21,269 bases of DNA from an uncultured bacterium (GTDB taxonomy: Bacteria; Methylomirabilota; Methylomirabilia; Rokubacteriales; CSP1-6). A model generated the notes under the pieces. It was given only the letters and a program-made list of their open reading frames with translations. It searched no databases and was not told where the DNA came from. Below are positions 10,536 to 17,762 of the stretch, piece after piece. Position numbers and translations under genes: made by a program. The DNA is taken from assembly GCA_946479205.1 (NCBI GenBank), contig CAMLFJ010000003.1, forward strand, positions 1-21,269, read 5' to 3'. Positions within the stretch are counted from its first letter, which is position 1, and each line of letters opens with the position of its first letter.

Positions 10536-11378
10536 GTGAATACCTCCGCACTCGACGCGTCGCGAGACCGCCTGCTGAAGACCGCCGCGAATGACGGGAT
10601 CGTCCTCGCCCACGCCACCGCGACCAGGGCGGTGGCCGCCTGGACGCTGGCCCCGGCGCCCCCGGACCCGGCCCGTCATCTGGAGACGGCCCACGCGCAG
10701 GCCCGCCGCCATCTCGCCCGGCTCACCCAGCACGATCCCGCCCGTGAAGTGCTCGCGGTCATGACCGACGAGCTGTTCTTCCGATTGACCGACGCGCGAC
10801 CGGCCCCCCTCACCGCGCCGGCGGGCGTGACCCGTTTCGTCTACACGCCGCGCAAGACCCTGCGCCGCGTGCTCGATCACGCGCTGGACCATCTGAACCA
10901 GATCGACCAGTGGCTCGCCTGGCAGCATGACGGCGTCGTCCCGACGCCGACCGATGGATGGGTGCCGTCCACGGTGACCCTGCCCGATGACCGGCTGCCC
11001 CTGACGCCCGCCGATCTCGACGCGTGGCTCTGGCGCATCGACCAGGCCACCCGGCTCGTCGTGCGGCGGGCGGGGCAGCTCAGCCTAGCCGAGCTGGACT
11101 GGCTTCCCCCCGATGGAGGCTGGCCCCTGCGTCGCGTGCTCCACCACCTCGCGCGGTCGGAGCGTCTCTACGCGGCCGCGCTCGACGAAGCGCTGCCCGA
11201 CGAGGATCCGGCGCGCCGGTACGAGGCGGCCAGCCGGCGCCTCGACGACGGCGTGCGCGCGGCGAGCGATCGCGGCCGGGACGAGTCGATCGTCTATGCG
11301 GGCCTCTACGGAGTACTACAGTCGCCCGAGGAGGTCGTGGACCTCGTGCTCACCATCGAGCGTGAGCTGCTGGCCTAG
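10536..11378 (+). CDS. DinB-like (four-helix bundle) protein
   Basis: This is a helical protein of 280 residues with two DinB-like signatures. The first is RRVLDHALDHLNQIDQWLAW around residue 115. The second is RRVLHHLARSERLYAAAL around residue 205, preceded by LDWLPPDGGWPL. DinB/YfiT-type proteins are metal-binding four-helix bundles, some of which are thiol-dependent transferases. The histidines of the two signatures could hold a metal, but I cannot assign an activity. The GTG start at 10536 follows AAGGGAG (10520-10526) at a good distance, and a TATATC box at 10504-10509 could serve as a -10 element, without a clear -35. It is followed after 4 bases by a solute-binding protein gene. Confidence 0.7.
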   Translation: MNTSALDASRDRLLKTAANDGIVLAHATATRAVAAWTLAPAPPDPARHLETAHAQARRHLARLTQHDPAREVLAVMTDELFFRLTDARPAPLTAPAGVTRFVYTPRKTLRRVLDHALDHLNQIDQWLAWQHDGVVPTPTDGWVPSTVTLPDDRLPLTPADLDAWLWRIDQATRLVVRRAGQLSLAELDWLPPDGGWPLRRVLHHLARSERLYAAALDEALPDEDPARRYEAASRRLDDGVRAASDRGRDESIVYAGLYGVLQSPEEVVDLVLTIERELLA

Positions 11379-11382
11379 CGGC

Positions 11383-12171
11383 ATGGCCATGACGACGGGA
11401 CTTGTCGGTCTGATTCTGCTAGCATCTGGCGCCATGGCCGACATCACTCCCGCCGTCCGCGCCGATCTCGCTGCGACCGGCAAGCTCCGGGCCGCCATCA
11501 ACTACGGCAACTTCATCCTCGCCACGAAGGACAAGACCACCGGCGAGTCGAAGGGCGCGGCGGTCGACCTGACGCACGAGATCGCGAAGCGGCTCGGCGT
11601 CCCGGTCGAGATCGTCGCGTACGACAGCGTGGCGGTCATGGGCGACGCGGCGCCGAGCGGCGTGTGGGACATCGCGTTCCTCGGCTCCGACCCGGCGCGC
11701 GAGAAGATCATGAGCTTCACCGCCGCGTATCTCGAGATCGAGGCGACCTACCTGGTGCCCGGCGCCTCCCCGCTGCGCACCGCCGCGGACGTCGATCGCG
11801 AGGGCGTGCGCGTGGCCGCGCCGGCCCGCGCCAACTACGAGCTCTATCTGAGCCGCAACCTCAAGCGAGCGCAGCTCGTGTCGGCGCCGGGCGCCGACGC
11901 GGCCTTCGAGCTGCTCGCGACCGGCAAGGTCGAAGCCCTGGCCGGGTTGACCCAGGCCCTGCTCGGCCTGGCCCCGAAGCTGCCGGGGGCGCGCCTGGTC
12001 GAGGGACGGTTCATGGGCGTGCAGCAGTCCATCGCGGTGCCGAAGGGCAAGGACGCCGGCCTGCTCTACCTGCGCGCCGTCGTCGAAGAGGCCAAGCAGT
12101 CCGGGCTCGTGGCCCGCGCCATCGAGCGGACCGGGGCCAAGGGCGTCTCGGTGGCGCCCCCGGCGAAGTAG
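11383..12171 (+). CDS. Transporter substrate-binding protein (periplasmic binding protein type 2, SBP_bac_3-like)
   Basis: This is a periplasmic solute-binding protein of 262 residues. A short signal sequence (MAMTTGLVGLILLASGAMA) precedes the mature domain. Fold markers are GKLRAAINYGNFILATKD, GAAVDLTHEIAKRLGVPVEIVAYDS, GVWDIAFLGSDPAREKIM, SFTAAYLEIEATYLVPG, AFELLATGKVEALAGL and QQSIAVPKG. It resembles amino-acid or polar-solute receptors of ABC systems, but no permease or ATPase gene is adjacent, so it is an orphan receptor. The ATG at 11383 (with another at 11389) follows the DinB stop by 4 bases without an SD, so its translation probably depends on the upstream gene. A later ATG at 11434 would remove the signal peptide and is less likely. 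Confidence 0.85.
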   Translation: MAMTTGLVGLILLASGAMADITPAVRADLAATGKLRAAINYGNFILATKDKTTGESKGAAVDLTHEIAKRLGVPVEIVAYDSVAVMGDAAPSGVWDIAFLGSDPAREKIMSFTAAYLEIEATYLVPGASPLRTAADVDREGVRVAAPARANYELYLSRNLKRAQLVSAPGADAAFELLATGKVEALAGLTQALLGLAPKLPGARLVEGRFMGVQQSIAVPKGKDAGLLYLRAVVEEAKQSGLVARAIERTGAKGVSVAPPAK

Positions 12172-12253
12172 CGACCCCGCCGGTCCTCGCTTCTCGCCGG
12201 TCCGCGGGCGATCGGCGCCTGACCGTTCAGACCGATCCACAAGGAGAGACGGC

Positions 12254-13321
12254 ATGGAGATCCCCCGCACGATGAAGGCGACGGTGCTCGTCGCGCCACA
12301 CCGGTTCGAGCTGCTGGAGCGGCCGGTGCCGGTGCCGGGCGACGAGGACGTTCTCGTCCGGGTACGCGCCTGCGGTGTCTGAGGGACGGACCTGAAAATC
12401 ATCCACACCGGCATGCCGAAGATGCCGCCCTACGGCGAGTTCATCTTCGGCCACGAGTACGCGGGCGACGTGGTCGCCATCGGCCGGACGGTGGACGAGT
12501 TTCGGGTCGGCGACCGGGTGGTCGTCGAGGCGCACATGGGCTGCCGCCGCTGCGAGAACTGCATCCGTGGGCACTACACCGCGTGTCTGAACTATGGCAA
12601 CGCGCGGCGCGGGCATCGCGCCAATGGGTTCACCACGAACGGGGGGCTCGCCGAGTATGCGGTGAACCACGTCAACACGCTGTACCGCATTCCCGACGGG
12701 GTGGACTACGACGAGGCGACCGTGGTGATGACCTCGGGCAGCCCGCTCTTCGGGCTGGAGAACGCGGGCGGCTACTTCGCGGGCGAGACGGTGGCCGTGC
12801 TCGGCCCCGGCCCGATCGGCCTCATGGCCATCCAGCTCGTCAAGGCGCTCGGAGCCACCCGCGTGATCCTCACCGGCACCCGCGCTTCCCGCCTGGCCAT
12901 GGGCCGGCAGCTCGGCGCCGACGTCGTCGTCGACAGCCGTGAGACGGATCCGGTGGCCGCGGTCATGGAGGCGACCGCCGAGAAGGGCGCCGACCTCGTG
13001 ATCGACTGCGCGGGCGGCGACGACACGTTCGACCAGTCCATCAAGATGGCCAAGTCCGGCGGCAAGGTGCTGCTGGTGGCCTTCTATCACGGCCCGGTGA
13101 CCGCCGACGTGAGCCACGCGGTCCGCCGCAACATCACGATCTACACCGAGCGCGGCGAGGGCGGCACCAGCGTGGGCCGCGCGCTCGCGCTGCTCGCGGC
13201 CGGGCGGCTCACCGCCAAGCCGCTCATCACGCACCACTTCCCGCTCAGCCGCGTCCACGAGGCGATGGACGTCCTCGAGCGGCGCATCGGCGACCCGCTG
13301 AAGGTGGTCCTGGAGCCGTGA
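12254..13321 (+). CDS. Zinc-dependent alcohol dehydrogenase (MDR family) with an in-frame TGA (probable selenocysteine 43)
   Basis: This is a medium-chain zinc dehydrogenase of 355 residues if TGA (12380-12382) is read through. Start: ATG after AAGGAG (12241-12246). The GroES-like domain reads MKATVLVAPHRFELLERPVPVPG, DEDVLVRVRACGV, TGA, GTDLKI, then the GHE zinc motif (H67-E68). In relatives the motif is CGVCGTD, so TGA replaces the catalytic-zinc cysteine. The structural-zinc cysteines C97, C100, C103 and C111 (CRRCENC, then C) are intact. The NAD(P) loop is G184-P-G-P-I-G189. The frame is otherwise undamaged; starting at the ATG at 12413 instead would lose the catalytic site. It resembles threonine/sorbitol dehydrogenase-type enzymes; the substrate is unknown. 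Its stop overlaps the tctC start (GTGA), linking it to TTT uptake. Confidence 0.85.
12380..12382 (+). other. In-frame TGA, probable selenocysteine codon (catalytic zinc ligand of alcohol dehydrogenase)
   Basis: Codon 43 is TGA between TGC GGT GTC and GGG ACG GAC. The family motif has cysteine here, equivalent to Cys46 of horse liver alcohol dehydrogenase, which binds the catalytic zinc. TGC to TGA is a single-base difference, so a mutation or sequencing error is the main alternative. Confidence 0.72.
12400..12451 (+). promoter_or_regulatory. Competing RNA hairpins downstream of the dehydrogenase TGA (candidate SECIS region)
   Basis: Two alternative folds share GATG at 12421-12424. Fold A: CATC (12400-12403) with GATG, enclosing CGG (12409-12411) and CCG (12416-12418) around CATG. 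Its loop lies about 30 bases after the TGA, within the usual SECIS distance. Fold B: a perfect 10-bp stem, GCCGAAGATG (12415-12424) with CATCTTCGGC (12442-12451), loop of 17 bases; this is stable but its loop starts 43 bases after the TGA, farther than usual. Which one, if either, binds SelB cannot be told by eye. Confidence 0.35.
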
Positions 13322-14277
13322 GGCGACCCGCGCCCGCCCGCGTGATCGCGCTCGCGCTCGCGGCGGTCTGCCTGGCCGCGGGGCCGGCGACCGCGTTCCC
13401 CGACAAGCCCGTGGAGATGACGGTGCTGTTCGGGGCCGGCAGCGCCGCCGATCTCCTCGCCCGCAAGCTGGCCGAGCTGGCCGGCAAGGGCCTGGGGCAG
13501 CCGGTCGCCGTCGTCAACCGCACCGGGGCGGGCGGGGCCCTCGGCTACACCCACGTCAAGGGCCAGAGCGCGGACGGCTACGCGCTCGTCTGGAACTCCA
13601 ACAGCATCAGCACCGCCTACCATGCGGGCAACATGAAGTTCGACCACACCGCGTTCGCGGGCGTGGCCGCGCTGACCAGCGAGCCGGTCTCGCTCGCGGT
13701 CAAGGCCGACGCGCCGTGGCCGGGCATCCGGGAGCTTCTCGCTCACGCGAAGGCGCACCCGGGCCAGGTGCGCGTGGGCAACTCCGGCCGGGGCAGCTTC
13801 ACGCACCTGGTCGCCGTCGCGCTGGAGAACCGCGCGGGCGTCAAGCTCACCCACGTGCCGTTCGGCCGCGAGCTGGCCGTGACCACGGTGCTCGGCGACA
13901 AGATCGAGGCGAGTGTTCAGCTGCCGGCCGAGATCATGACCCAGGTGACCGGGCGCCAGGTGCGGGTGCTGGCGGTCACCGGCGAAAAACGGCTGGCCAG
14001 CCTGCCCGACGTGCCCACGCTGAAGGAGAGCGGGGTGGACCTCACCATGGCGCTCTGGCGCGGGATCGCGGTGCCGAAAGGCACCCCGGAGGCGGTGATC
14101 GCGCGGCTCGAGCACGCGTTCACGCTGGCCGCGCAGACCCCCGACTTCCGCGAGTTCTCGGCCCGCATGGGGGCGGTGGTCGAGGTCCGCGGCGCCCGGG
14201 ACTTCGACGCGTTCATCGCGCGCGACGACCGGGAGATCGCGGCCCTGATGGAGCAGATCGGGCTCAAGAAGCAGTAG
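13318..14277 (+). CDS. tctC: Tripartite tricarboxylate transporter substrate-binding protein (TctC/BUG family)
   Basis: This is a periplasmic TctC-type receptor of 319 residues. A signal peptide (MRRPAPARVIALALAAVCLAAGPATA) is followed by the family opening FPDKPVEMTVLFGAGSAADLLARKLAE. Further family segments are VVNRTGAGGALGY, WNSNSISTAYH, VRVGNSGRGSFTHL, LPDVPTLKESGVDL and WRGIAVPKGTP. Such proteins bind carboxylates or similar acids with a closed-cleft fold. The GTG start overlaps the alcohol dehydrogenase stop (GTGA), and tctB begins one base after its stop, so dehydrogenase, receptor and transporter form one translation-coupled unit. The likely ligand is the substrate or product of the dehydrogenase pathway; this is inference. 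Confidence 0.93.
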   Translation: MRRPAPARVIALALAAVCLAAGPATAFPDKPVEMTVLFGAGSAADLLARKLAELAGKGLGQPVAVVNRTGAGGALGYTHVKGQSADGYALVWNSNSISTAYHAGNMKFDHTAFAGVAALTSEPVSLAVKADAPWPGIRELLAHAKAHPGQVRVGNSGRGSFTHLVAVALENRAGVKLTHVPFGRELAVTTVLGDKIEASVQLPAEIMTQVTGRQVRVLAVTGEKRLASLPDVPTLKESGVDLTMALWRGIAVPKGTPEAVIARLEHAFTLAAQTPDFREFSARMGAVVEVRGARDFDAFIARDDREIAALMEQIGLKKQ

Positions 14278-14278
14278 C

Positions 14279-14719
14279 GTGAGCCCGCGCCCCGCCGCGC
14301 GCCGCGATCACTGGAGCGCCCTCGGCCTGGCCGTCCTCGCGCTCGGCTACCTCCTCGCCGGCCGCCGCTACCCGCTCGACACCCTGGCCACTCCCGGGCC
14401 CGGCATCTTTCCCCTCGCGGCCGGCCTCGCGCTGCTGGCCCTGGCGATCTGGCAGCTCGTCGCGGCCGGCCGCTCGGCGCCGGACCCGGCCGGCGGCGCC
14501 CCGGTGCCGCGGGCGCCGCTCATCATGTCCGCCGTGCTCGTGCTCTACGCGGCCGCCCTGCCCGTGCTCGGCTTCCTGCTCACGTCGTTCGCGCTCGTGA
14601 TCGTCGCCGCCCGGTTGATGGGACTCGACGACTGGTGGCGCGCGGCCGCGCTCGCGCTCGGCGTCACCGCGGCCAGCCGCCTGCTCTTCGGCACCTGGCT
14701 GGGGGTGCCGCTGCCGTGA
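14279..14719 (+). CDS. tctB: Tripartite tricarboxylate transporter small membrane subunit TctB
   Basis: This is a 146-residue membrane protein with four hydrophobic segments: SALGLAVLALGYLLAG, FPLAAGLALLALAIWQLV, PLIMSAVLVLYAAALPVLGF, and the C-terminal AAALALGVTAASRLLFGTWLGVPLP. The motif TPGPGIFPL near residue 40 and the final LFGTWLGVPLP are typical of TctB. It pairs with the large TctA subunit in proton- or sodium-driven uptake. The GTG start lies one base after the tctC stop, and its stop TGA overlaps the tctA GTG (GTGA). Confidence 0.92.
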   Translation: MSPRPAARRDHWSALGLAVLALGYLLAGRRYPLDTLATPGPGIFPLAAGLALLALAIWQLVAAGRSAPDPAGGAPVPRAPLIMSAVLVLYAAALPVLGFLLTSFALVIVAARLMGLDDWWRAAALALGVTAASRLLFGTWLGVPLP

Positions 14720-16197
14720 GCGACCTGTTCGTCGCCCTGACGCCGGCCAACCTCCTCGCCTGCTTCACGGGCGTCGTCCTCGGCACGATCGTGGGGGTGC
14801 TGCCGGGACTGGGACCGGCCGGGGCGATGGCGCTCGTCCTTCCGCTGACGATCAAGCTGGGGCCGACGGCCGGACTCATCATGCTGGCCGGGATCTACTA
14901 CGGCTCGATGTACGGAGGCTCGACGACGTCGATCCTGGTCAACGTTCCCGGGGAGGCGGCCAGCGTCGTCACGACCATCGACGGCTATCGGCTCGCGCGG
15001 AAGGGGCGCGCCGGCGCCGCGCTGGCCATCGCGGCGATCGCGTCGTTCGTGGCCGGCACCTTCAGCGTGGTCGCGCTCCAGCTCGCGGCGCCGTTCGTCG
15101 CCCGCCTCGCGCTGGCGTTCGGACCCGCCGAGTACTTCGCGTTCGCGCTGCTGGGCGTCACCCTGCTCGCCAACCTCACCGGGGGGGCGCGCGTAAAGTC
15201 GCTGGCCATGGTCGTGGCCGGCATCATGCTGTCGACGGTGGGGATGGATCCCCTCGGCGGCACCGTGCGGTTCACCTTCGACGTGGCGGGGGCCCAGGCC
15301 GGGCTCAGCTTCATCGCGGTCACGGCCGGGCTGTTCGGCGTGGCCGAGGTGCTGGCCACGATCGCGGCGCCGGCCGCCTTCGCGCCGGTGGCGCGCGTGC
15401 CCTTCCGCGCCTTGTATCCGAGCCGCGAGGAGCTGCGGCGCTCGGTGCCGCCGATGCTGCGCGGCACCGTGCTGGGCTTCCTGGTCGGCCTCGTCCCCGG
15501 GCCGGCCGCGACGATCGCGTCCTTCGTGTCGTACGGCGTGGAGAAGCGCGTGTCGCGCTATCGCCACGAGATCGGGACCGGCGCCATCGAGGGGGTGGCC
15601 GGGCCCGAGGCGGCCAACAACGCGGCGGCCGGCGGGGGCATGATCCCGCTGCTCGCGCTCGGCCTGCCGTTCACGCCGTCCACCGCGGTGCTGCTCAGCG
15701 GCATGCTCCTCATGAGCGTCACCCCGGGGCCGTTCCTGCTCCGTGATCACCCGCAGGTGTTCTGGGGCGTCATCGGCAGCTTCTACATCGGCAACGTGAT
15801 GCTGCTCCTCCTCAACCTGCCGCTGGTCGGCATCTTTGCCCGGGTCGCCACCATCCCGCCGCGCTACCTGATGCCGGGCGTGCTCGTCCTGTGCGCGGTC
15901 GCGGCCTACTCCGACAACAACAACCCGTTCGACGTGTGGGTGATGGTGGGCGCCGGCGTTCTCGGCTACGCCATGCGCGGGCTCGGCTACGATCCGGCGC
16001 CCCTGGTGCTCGGCCTCGTGCTGGGCCCGGTCCTGGAGCGCTCGCTGCTGCAGGCGCTCACGATCGGGCGCGGCGATCCGCGCGAGCTGTGGTCGTCGGC
16101 GCCCGCCGCGATCATGCTGGTCGCCACCGCCGTGGTGCTCCTCGCGCCGGCCGCTCGGGCGGGCCTGCGACGGTGGCCCCGCGGGCGCGTGTCGTGA
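14716..16197 (+). CDS. tctA: Tripartite tricarboxylate transporter permease TctA
   Basis: This is the large membrane subunit, 493 residues and about twelve membrane segments, matching the usual TctA length. Signatures include GTIVGVLPGLGPAGAMALVLP, the stretch GIYYGSMYGGSTTSILVNVP with GEAASVVTTIDGY, GFLVGLVPGPAATIASFVSY, GPEAANNAAAGGGMIPLLAL, GLPFTPSTAVLLSGM and a C-terminal VLGLVLGPVLERSL. The GTG start overlaps the tctB stop. It carries out uptake of the acid delivered by TctC. It is the last gene of the unit; a small hairpin at 16212-16226 follows the stop. Confidence 0.95.
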   Translation: MSDLFVALTPANLLACFTGVVLGTIVGVLPGLGPAGAMALVLPLTIKLGPTAGLIMLAGIYYGSMYGGSTTSILVNVPGEAASVVTTIDGYRLARKGRAGAALAIAAIASFVAGTFSVVALQLAAPFVARLALAFGPAEYFAFALLGVTLLANLTGGARVKSLAMVVAGIMLSTVGMDPLGGTVRFTFDVAGAQAGLSFIAVTAGLFGVAEVLATIAAPAAFAPVARVPFRALYPSREELRRSVPPMLRGTVLGFLVGLVPGPAATIASFVSYGVEKRVSRYRHEIGTGAIEGVAGPEAANNAAAGGGMIPLLALGLPFTPSTAVLLSGMLLMSVTPGPFLLRDHPQVFWGVIGSFYIGNVMLLLLNLPLVGIFARVATIPPRYLMPGVLVLCAVAAYSDNNNPFDVWVMVGAGVLGYAMRGLGYDPAPLVLGLVLGPVLERSLLQALTIGRGDPRELWSSAPAAIMLVATAVVLLAPAARAGLRRWPRGRVS

Positions 16198-16226: not shown

Positions 16227-16427
16227 CAGAACGCGGGGTCTTGACCGGCGCCGGCGACCAACTACGCGAATTTCGTGCGAACACCGAACGGGTGATCGCT
16301 TGGCACTGGTTGCGCATCGCGAGGCAGACCCGCTCGTAAGGGAGGTGATGCTCGAAGGCTCCCGGCTCCCACTGCGCCTATGCGCGCTCCCTGTCGCTCT
16401 CCTCGCGCCGCACAGGAGGATCGAGTC

Positions 16428-17762
16428 ATGATGCACGCCCTCAGACCCATCCGTCGCCTGGTCCCGACCACCACCCTGGTCGCCTGTCTATGGGCTCTCA
16501 CCCTGGCCCCGCCCGCCCTCGCCAACGAGGTCGTCCAGTGGAACGAGACGACGATGAAGGCCATCGTGGCGACCGGGCAGAACAACGTCGTGTCGACCCG
16601 CACCCTCGCCATGGTGCAGGTGGCGGTGCACGACGCGCTGAACGCCATCGATCGCCGCTACGACGCCTACTACTTCGAGGGGCCCGGAGACCCCGCCGCG
16701 TCGCCCGATGCCGCGGTCGCGGCCGCCGCCCACACGGTGCTCGTCGGGGTGATCGGAGGCTACGGCACACCCGCCCAGAAGGGCGCGACGTTTGCCCTGG
16801 TCGACCAGGCCTACGCGGCCTCGATGGCCCGCGTCACCGACGGCCCCGCCCGGAACAAAGGGGTGGCGGTCGGGCGCGCGGCCGGGGCGGCGATCCTTGC
16901 GCTTCGCAAGGACGACGGGGCCTTCCGCGACGCGCCCTACACGCCGGGCATGGGGCCCGGGAAGTGGCAGCCGCACCCGAACCCGGTCCCCGCCAACCCG
17001 CCCATCGCCAACCCGGACCTCGCCCGCGGCTACGCGCCCTCGGCGGTCCCGGGCTGGGGGAACGTCACACCGTTCACGCTCCTTTCTTCCTCGCAATTCT
17101 GGCTTCCGGGGCCCCCGGCATTGACGAGCCCGACCTATGCGCGCGACTACAACGAGGTGAAGAACATCGGCGGCAAGGTCAGCACGACCCGTACGGACGA
17201 CCAGACCCAGATCGCGCGCTTCTGGTTCGAGGGGCCGGGCAACTGGAACACGATCGCGCGCACGGTGGCCACCACGCGCCGCCTCGATGCTCGGGACAGC
17301 GCCCGGGTGCTGGCCCTCATGAACATCGCGATGGCGGACGCCTACATCGCGGGCTTCAAGATCCGCTACGTGTACGATTCGTGGCGACCAGTGACCGCCA
17401 TCCGGGAGGGCGACAACGACGGCAACGACGCCACCGTCGGCGACCCGACCTGGGACAGCCATCAGAATACGCCGTCGGTCTCGGACTATCCGTCCACCCA
17501 GAGCACCTTCAGCGCGGCCGCCGCGGTGGCCCTCGCCAGCGCCCTCGGCGGCGACCAGGCCAGCTTCACGGTCACGAGCGGGAAGCCATTCGACGGAATC
17601 ACCCGATCGTTCACGAGCTTCGCCCAGGCGGCGCGGGAGAGCGCCGACTCCCGAGTCTATGCGGGCATCCACTTCCGGAGCGCCTGTGAGGACGGGCTCG
17701 TCCTGGGCCGCAAGATCGGACAGCGGACCGCCACGCTCTATCTCCAGCCTGTGAAGAAGTGA
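16428..17762 (+). CDS. Vanadium-dependent haloperoxidase-like PAP2 family protein with altered active site
   Basis: This is an exported protein of 444 residues. A signal peptide (ending PPALA-N, cleavage near 32) precedes a haloperoxidase-type domain: NEVVQWNETTMKAI, QVAVHDALNAIDRRYDAY, FWFEGPGNWNTIARTVA. The vanadate/phosphate pocket is recognisable: R320-P321 in YDSWRPVTAIRE, S356 in DYPSTQSTFSAAAA, and R409 with H415 in SRVYAGIHFRSACEDG. Two canonical residues differ: R313 stands where the KxxxxxxRP lysine is expected, and Q358 replaces the histidine of PSGH. The start is ATG 16428 (or 16431) after AGGAGGA (16414-16420). A membrane protein and an amidohydrolase follow in the same direction. 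Halide oxidation is doubtful; phosphatase-like or non-catalytic roles are possible. Confidence 0.85.
   Translation: MMHALRPIRRLVPTTTLVACLWALTLAPPALANEVVQWNETTMKAIVATGQNNVVSTRTLAMVQVAVHDALNAIDRRYDAYYFEGPGDPAASPDAAVAAAAHTVLVGVIGGYGTPAQKGATFALVDQAYAASMARVTDGPARNKGVAVGRAAGAAILALRKDDGAFRDAPYTPGMGPGKWQPHPNPVPANPPIANPDLARGYAPSAVPGWGNVTPFTLLSSSQFWLPGPPALTSPTYARDYNEVKNIGGKVSTTRTDDQTQIARFWFEGPGNWNTIARTVATTRRLDARDSARVLALMNIAMADAYIAGFKIRYVYDSWRPVTAIREGDNDGNDATVGDPTWDSHQNTPSVSDYPSTQSTFSAAAAVALASALGGDQASFTVTSGKPFDGITRSFTSFAQAARESADSRVYAGIHFRSACEDGLVLGRKIGQRTATLYLQPVKK

Follow-up and report, generated by a model that had tools for sequence, protein, structure and literature searches.

A zinc-type medium-chain dehydrogenase of Candidatus Rokuibacteriota with a predicted selenocysteine at the catalytic-zinc position

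Introduction

In well-known enzymes, metal-bound selenocysteines are found on redox metals, namely molybdenum, tungsten and nickel. In formate dehydrogenase (Mo/W) and NiFeSe hydrogenase (Ni), selenocysteine (Sec) replaces a cysteine that binds the active-site metal (PMC13188914). The same source, whose table draws in part on Haft and Tolstoy (2025; PMC12013261), puts the number of selenoprotein families and subfamilies in prokaryotes at 119 as of May 2026. These include the SO_0444 family Cu/Zn efflux transporter, with the motif UxC (PMC13188914).

Table 1 of PMC13188914 has no entry for a dehydrogenase of the medium-chain superfamily, be it for alcohols, threonine or polyols, in agreement with an earlier, sequence-only reading of the locus described here, which knew of no well-characterized selenoprotein in this dehydrogenase family. 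Furthermore, a term search found no “alcohol dehydrogenase” in the main texts of PMC12013277, PMC9312934, PMC2398784, PMC1088965 and PMC1794560, and the single mention in PMC10298544 sits in the reference list. None of the literature matches listed describes a Sec-containing medium-chain dehydrogenase; an earlier listing is possible in Deng et al. (2026; Cell Rep, 10.1016/j.celrep.2025.116760), to whom PMC13188914 refers for 63 selenoproteins predicted in a MAG of Methylomirabilota.

Here we analyze a gene for a zinc-type medium-chain dehydrogenase, a member of one of the best-studied enzyme superfamilies, in which an in-frame TGA is predicted to encode Sec. The dehydrogenase is likely to represent a new selenoprotein family. 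As in formate dehydrogenase and NiFeSe hydrogenase, Sec is predicted to take the place of a metal-binding Cys, but the metal would be zinc, with a constant oxidation state, rather than Mo/W or Ni, and we take the fold to be unrelated to either enzyme. The SO_0444 family is likewise zinc-linked and has Sec forms, but from its description it is a transporter and not a zinc-catalyzed dehydrogenase. If the prediction is true, Sec on a catalytic zinc raises the question of what selenium buys at a metal of constant oxidation state.

The dehydrogenase gene and its in-frame TGA

The window, that is, the whole stretch of 21,269 nucleotides analyzed here (an uncultured bacterium, contig CAMLFJ010000003.1), contains the following elements of the gene:

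12241..12247, + strand, AAGGAGA, a ribosome-binding-like sequence ahead of ATG 12254
12254..13321, + strand, zinc-type medium-chain dehydrogenase, predicted selenoprotein of 355 aa with one Sec (from frame, Pfam, alignment and AlphaFold)
12371..12373, + strand, Cys40, invariant in the close family, forming a CxxU motif with residue 43
12380..12382, + strand, in-frame TGA at codon 43, predicted selenocysteine codon, aligned with an invariant Cys
12542..12586, + strand, four-cysteine set C97, C100, C103 and C111

From ATG 12254, the only internal stop is the TGA at codon 43, in the context ACGV-TGA-GTD, and the next in-frame stop is TGA 13319-13321. The sequence-only reading had described one dehydrogenase frame with this single TGA and a good ribosome-binding site before its start; both observations hold. 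Its expectation that automatic annotation would begin at ATG 12413 is borne out as well, given that the table 11 ORF list has only 12413-13321 (302 aa) for this locus. The Pfam domain ADH_N is recognized across the TGA (residues 29-148, 99 bits) and ADH_zinc_N downstream of it (residues 187-298, 100.7 bits), both over the cut-off. The AlphaFold model has a mean pLDDT of 89.6; a first structure model, with a mean pLDDT of 71.3 and values below 50 at residues 42-67, was set aside for this later one. TGA terminates 11 of the 17 genes examined in the window, the dehydrogenase included, which indicates that the genetic code is not reassigned for TGA, and global reassignment is thereby ruled out.

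In four solved dehydrogenases, E. coli ECK1772 (5vm2), the ketose reductase/sorbitol dehydrogenase 1e3j and the threonine 3-dehydrogenases 2dfv and 2dq4, the residue aligned with position 43 is the Cys of a CGTD or CGSD motif, whereas the window gene has TGA, predicted to encode Sec, at this site. Cys43 is present in all 21 full-length homologues that, together with the window, make up an alignment of 22 sequences, and in 35 of 35 sequences of a wider alignment, both sets having been chosen from stop-free sequences. We take the Cys at this position in the relatives to be a ligand of the catalytic zinc, and the role predicted for residue 43 as a zinc ligand follows from the enzyme family. H67 and E68 are present and the position of the catalytic-zinc Cys is TGA, so that the predicted ligand set is complete only if this codon is read as Cys or Sec. 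The GxGxxG loop is also present (GPGPIG). In the alignment of 22 sequences, C97, C100, C103 and C111 (presumably the structural-zinc cysteines), G66-H67-E68, and G184, G186 and G189 are invariant, consistent with the earlier description of the structural-zinc cysteines, the GHE motif and the GPGPIG loop as intact. The wider set shows no variation at His67, at Glu68 or at three of the structural-zinc cysteines, and the fourth of these cysteines is nearly invariant. In one TGA member, L003 (1970-3031), the GHE motif reads GDE, i.e., the predicted zinc-ligand histidine is lost (His67 to Asp).

Conservation of the TGA codon in relatives

Scanning 84,980 species, each represented by a single genome, yielded 42 loci, 38 of which were read around codon 43. 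Codon 43 is TGA in 9 of these, all from Candidatus Rokuibacteriota at 86-94% identity, and TGC or TGT in 6 (L002, L010-L014). The remaining 23 were viewed as protein; 22 have Cys in the motif, and the distant L039 does not. A search of 95 Candidatus Rokuibacteriota genomes produced 12 matches at an identity of at least 81%, namely 10 with one TGA (from 9 genomes, with two copies in G001), one with Cys (G002) and a fragment in G072 that stops short of codon 43. Among the 11 relatives in this identity range that are readable at codon 43, TGA is thus found in 10 and TGC in one. In all 10 TGA loci, one of which (L036) is a fragment of 97 residues ending within the dehydrogenase gene, the stop is exactly at codon 43, with no second stop in the sequence available. 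Among the matches listed below 57% identity, internal stops occur in one (G017, one TGA and one TAG).

Because 9 other genomes have the same TGA codon, at 10 loci in total, a base error can be discounted for the family. Furthermore, in the 10 TGA genes dN/dS is 0.18 before the TGA and 0.15 after it, that is, both sides are under purifying selection of a similar degree. The sequence-only reading, which had proposed this search of related genomes for TGA or Cys at codon 43, would have given way to reads with TGC or TGT at the codon, to homologues with TGAs scattered as in a decaying gene or to a genome without selB/selC. At the level of the family, none of the three was encountered: TGA recurs at codon 43 in 9 genomes, always there and only once per gene, and selA, selB, selD and tRNA-Sec are present in the relatives (see below). 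The reading of the codon as selenocysteine is supported by the conservation of the TGA, by the Cys homologues and by these sel genes.

The nearest 120 database proteins comprise 29 with Cys43 and 91 without the N-terminus, with P0016, P0101 and P0102 assigned by eye. The shortened proteins start at residue 54 (44 proteins), 57 (43), 47 (3) or 44 (1). Judged from the proteins alone, starts just past codon 43 are the pattern that gene callers would give with a TGA there; if so, 91 of the 120 nearest database entries would be cut short before the active-site residue. The closest row to the window, P0006, is a Cys43 form that is identical to it over the 290 columns compared after codon 43 and thus offers a natural matched pair. 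In P0033, a shortened dehydrogenase is fused to TctC in a single frame of 542 residues.

With regard to mobile elements, none of the 16 pattern matches in viral contigs is a relative, no match was found in phages at 1e-60, and 7 plasmid records match at 47-50% identity.

Selenocysteine machinery in relatives

The machinery was counted in the ten relatives' genomes that are readable at codon 43, of which nine have TGA and the tenth, G002, has Cys. Over the cut-offs, selA was detected in 10 of 10, selB in 9 of the 9 tested (G054 being outside the test) and tRNA-Sec, with scores of at least 66 bits, in 9 of 10; the exception, G003, has a sel contig that breaks off inside selA. In 8 genomes, a single contig holds selA, selB and tRNA-Sec together in a stretch of about 5 kb, and ARAGORN gives the anticodon TCA in the 5 tRNA-Sec loci read. 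Across the phylum, selA is found in 83 of 95 genomes, so that finding it alongside the TGA gene would be expected in any case and adds little.

The selD gene is present in all ten genomes, each time with one in-frame TGA of its own, as in the dehydrogenase, which points to active decoding of Sec in these genomes. SelD of these Rokubacteria (L108-L117; G001-G009, G054) is itself a predicted selenoprotein, with the motif CAG-TGA-ASK. In the 9 of 10 selD loci that pass the filter, an 8-bp hairpin with a 4-nt tip, mostly CUCCUGGAGAUCUCCAGGAG, begins 13 nt after the TGA; its tip AGAUCU resembles, as we take it, the E. coli AGGUCU. The dehydrogenase, by contrast, has no such plain element after its TGA. 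The FdhA-type genes of the ten genomes (L118-L133) have no internal stop in any of the 16 matches, indicating that the Sec system is not maintained here for the sake of a Sec formate dehydrogenase of that family.

RNA signals around codon 43

The following element was examined as a candidate SECIS:

12409..12427, + strand, candidate SECIS hairpin of 6 bp with a 7-nt loop starting with G, 32 nt after the TGA; weak and not distinctive

In 10 of the 11 TGA genes, a stem of 5-6 bp closed by a 7-nt loop occurs 32 nt past the TGA. The published SECIS rule was taken from PMC13188914 and applied as a plain-hairpin version with no bulges allowed. The hairpin reaches the published energy limit in 6 of the 11 genes, and 9-29% of the codons in these genes reach the same limit. 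A similar hairpin is present in the Cys gene L002, the structure following in part from the coding sequence for GMPxMP. Given these frequencies and the hairpin in L002, the hairpin proves nothing, and in a gene as GC-rich as this one the plain-hairpin version of the rule has no selectivity. Rfam identifies no SECIS in the window at gathering scores, and single-sequence and RNAalifold folds give no single structure common to all. Comparison of folding energy with synonymous shuffles gives no signal (mean z -0.1 to -0.5); the hairpin of SelD itself reaches only +0.4 to -2.4, so this test has little power. We therefore speak of a weak candidate hairpin and do not claim a SECIS after the dehydrogenase TGA. 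Not every SECIS element of bacteria conforms to the published rule (PMC13188914).

Synonymous variation after the TGA is mildly low, with windows as low making up 18% (13 codons), 16% (18 codons) and 8% (22 codons). At codon 48 (Lys, 12395-12397 in the window), AAA is used in 8 of 11 TGA genes, compared with 6 of 80 other lysine codons, AAG being the usual lysine codon elsewhere in the TGA genes of this GC-rich family. The Fisher p-value of this excess (5e-6) is optimistic because the genes are related, and AAA at codon 48 is also found in L013 and L014, both of them distant genes with Cys. The preference is a hint of constraint on the RNA. A terminator-like stem with a T-rich tail lies within the gene (12423-12437, 41 bases past the TGA), probably by chance.

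Alternative explanations

SECIS apart, comparative tests predict that the dehydrogenase is a selenoprotein; we consider it highly probable that the TGA at codon 43 is read as Sec, whether or not this residue binds zinc. A sequencing or assembly error, TGC to TGA, might be suspected from the Cys of P0006, which is identical over the 290 columns compared, but is refuted for the family by the TGA shared among the 10 loci and has a negligible chance of being correct. A true stop, in a decaying gene or one subject to regulated truncation, would make the real protein the 302-residue product from 12413, as mechanical ORF calling has it; the start of this form is shared by 44 of the 120 database proteins nearest to it. 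Against this, codons 1-42 are constrained about as much as the rest, the 10 TGA loci contain no second stop, and the short form would be deprived of its first 53 residues, residue 43 included; we regard a true stop as very unlikely. If a suppressor-type tRNA or inefficient termination led to the UGA being read as Cys or as some other standard residue, the product would be an ordinary zinc dehydrogenase. Such misreading fits both the Cys of the full-length homologues and the unconvincing SECIS, but the relatives have a dedicated tRNA-Sec and other Sec machinery, along with a SelD that has an in-frame TGA, and TGA is otherwise a stop, which makes this explanation quite improbable.

Should the protein contain Sec, residue 43 might not be a metal ligand at all but form a redox CxxU pair with Cys40, in a thiol-selenol oxidoreductase or a redox-regulated protein. 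The invariance of Cys40 in the close family is compatible with such a role; Cys40 is, however, just as invariant in the Cys forms, and His67, Glu68 and the structural-zinc cysteines are conserved throughout the wider set to the extent described above, and we consider this version unlikely. The interpretation that we prefer, and hold to be likely, is that of a zinc-type medium-chain dehydrogenase in which TGA-encoded Sec replaces the Cys predicted to hold the catalytic zinc.

Exchange of Sec and Cys

A tree of 135 rows was built from the residues after codon 43. The first row set left out L003, P0016, P0101 and P0102; in the tree, L003, P0101 and P0102 were restored, P0016 (Cys43) was left out, and the fragment L036 is in neither set. 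In the tree, 101 rows were counted as Sec, comprising 10 in which TGA is seen and the 91 shortened proteins known as protein only. If the shortened rows count as Sec, at least 17 Sec/Cys changes are needed; the rows with codon or residue 43 itself seen (10 TGA, 34 Cys) need 5, and well-supported branches force only 5. Sec and Cys thus seem to swap often on this tree. Under equal-cost parsimony rooted on distant Cys rows, the changes resolve into 1 gain with 16 losses or, alternatively, 2 gains with 15 losses, and with a doubled loss cost into 20 gains and 4 losses; the direction of change accordingly depends on the costs. Given that a shift from Cys to Sec is the general trend described for bacteria in PMC1794560, frequent return to Cys would be unusual.

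Genomic context and proposed function

The neighbors of the dehydrogenase gene are the following:

11389..12171, + strand, extracellular solute-binding protein, family 3, upstream neighbor (PF00497, 42.2 bits)
13318..14277, + strand, TctC, tripartite tricarboxylate transporter receptor, its start overlapping the dehydrogenase stop (PF03401, 175.1 bits)
14279..14719, + strand, TctB (PF07331, 71.4 bits)
14716..16197, + strand, TctA (PF01970, 491.6 bits)

The dehydrogenase-TctC pair is found in L001-L005, four of which also have TctB and TctA, and the fifth contig ends in tctC. The DNA of the window operon is 80-86% identical to that of L001, L002, L004 and L005, which suggests that the species of the window is a Rokubacterium. 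TctC- and TctA-like genes also lie near the dehydrogenase in the distant Cys relatives L010-L012 and L014; in L013 they are beside a second dehydrogenase copy (10664-11569) on the other strand. Around the dehydrogenase genes of L006-L009, none of the neighbors seen in the window was found. From this gene neighborhood, and specifically from the adjoining tripartite transporter genes, we infer that the dehydrogenase probably oxidizes a hydroxy compound that the transporter imports.

We propose that SelA would convert Ser-tRNA(Sec) using selenophosphate supplied by SelD, and that SelB would deliver the resulting Sec-tRNA to the UGA, with translation continuing to the TGA at 13319. In the mature enzyme, Sec43 and His67 would bind the zinc that polarizes the hydroxyl group of the substrate, and NAD(P), held in the GPGPIG fold, would accept the hydride. 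The downstream transporter genes suggest an imported hydroxy-carboxylate or polyol-like compound as the substrate. A selenolate ligand would be softer than a thiolate and more readily and reversibly oxidized, and Sec43 might pair with Cys40 as a selenenylsulfide that protects or switches the site. The Cys versions in close relatives suggest that selenium is an optional tuning rather than a requirement of the fold. We favor, with moderate confidence, the fuller scenario of a natural zinc-selenolate enzyme in which Sec was gained about once in Rokubacteria and often reverted to Cys, with Cys40 as a protective or regulatory selenenylsulfide partner.

Right after the transporter operon, the window contains a gene whose product has vanadium chloroperoxidase-like and PAP2 domains (16380-17762).
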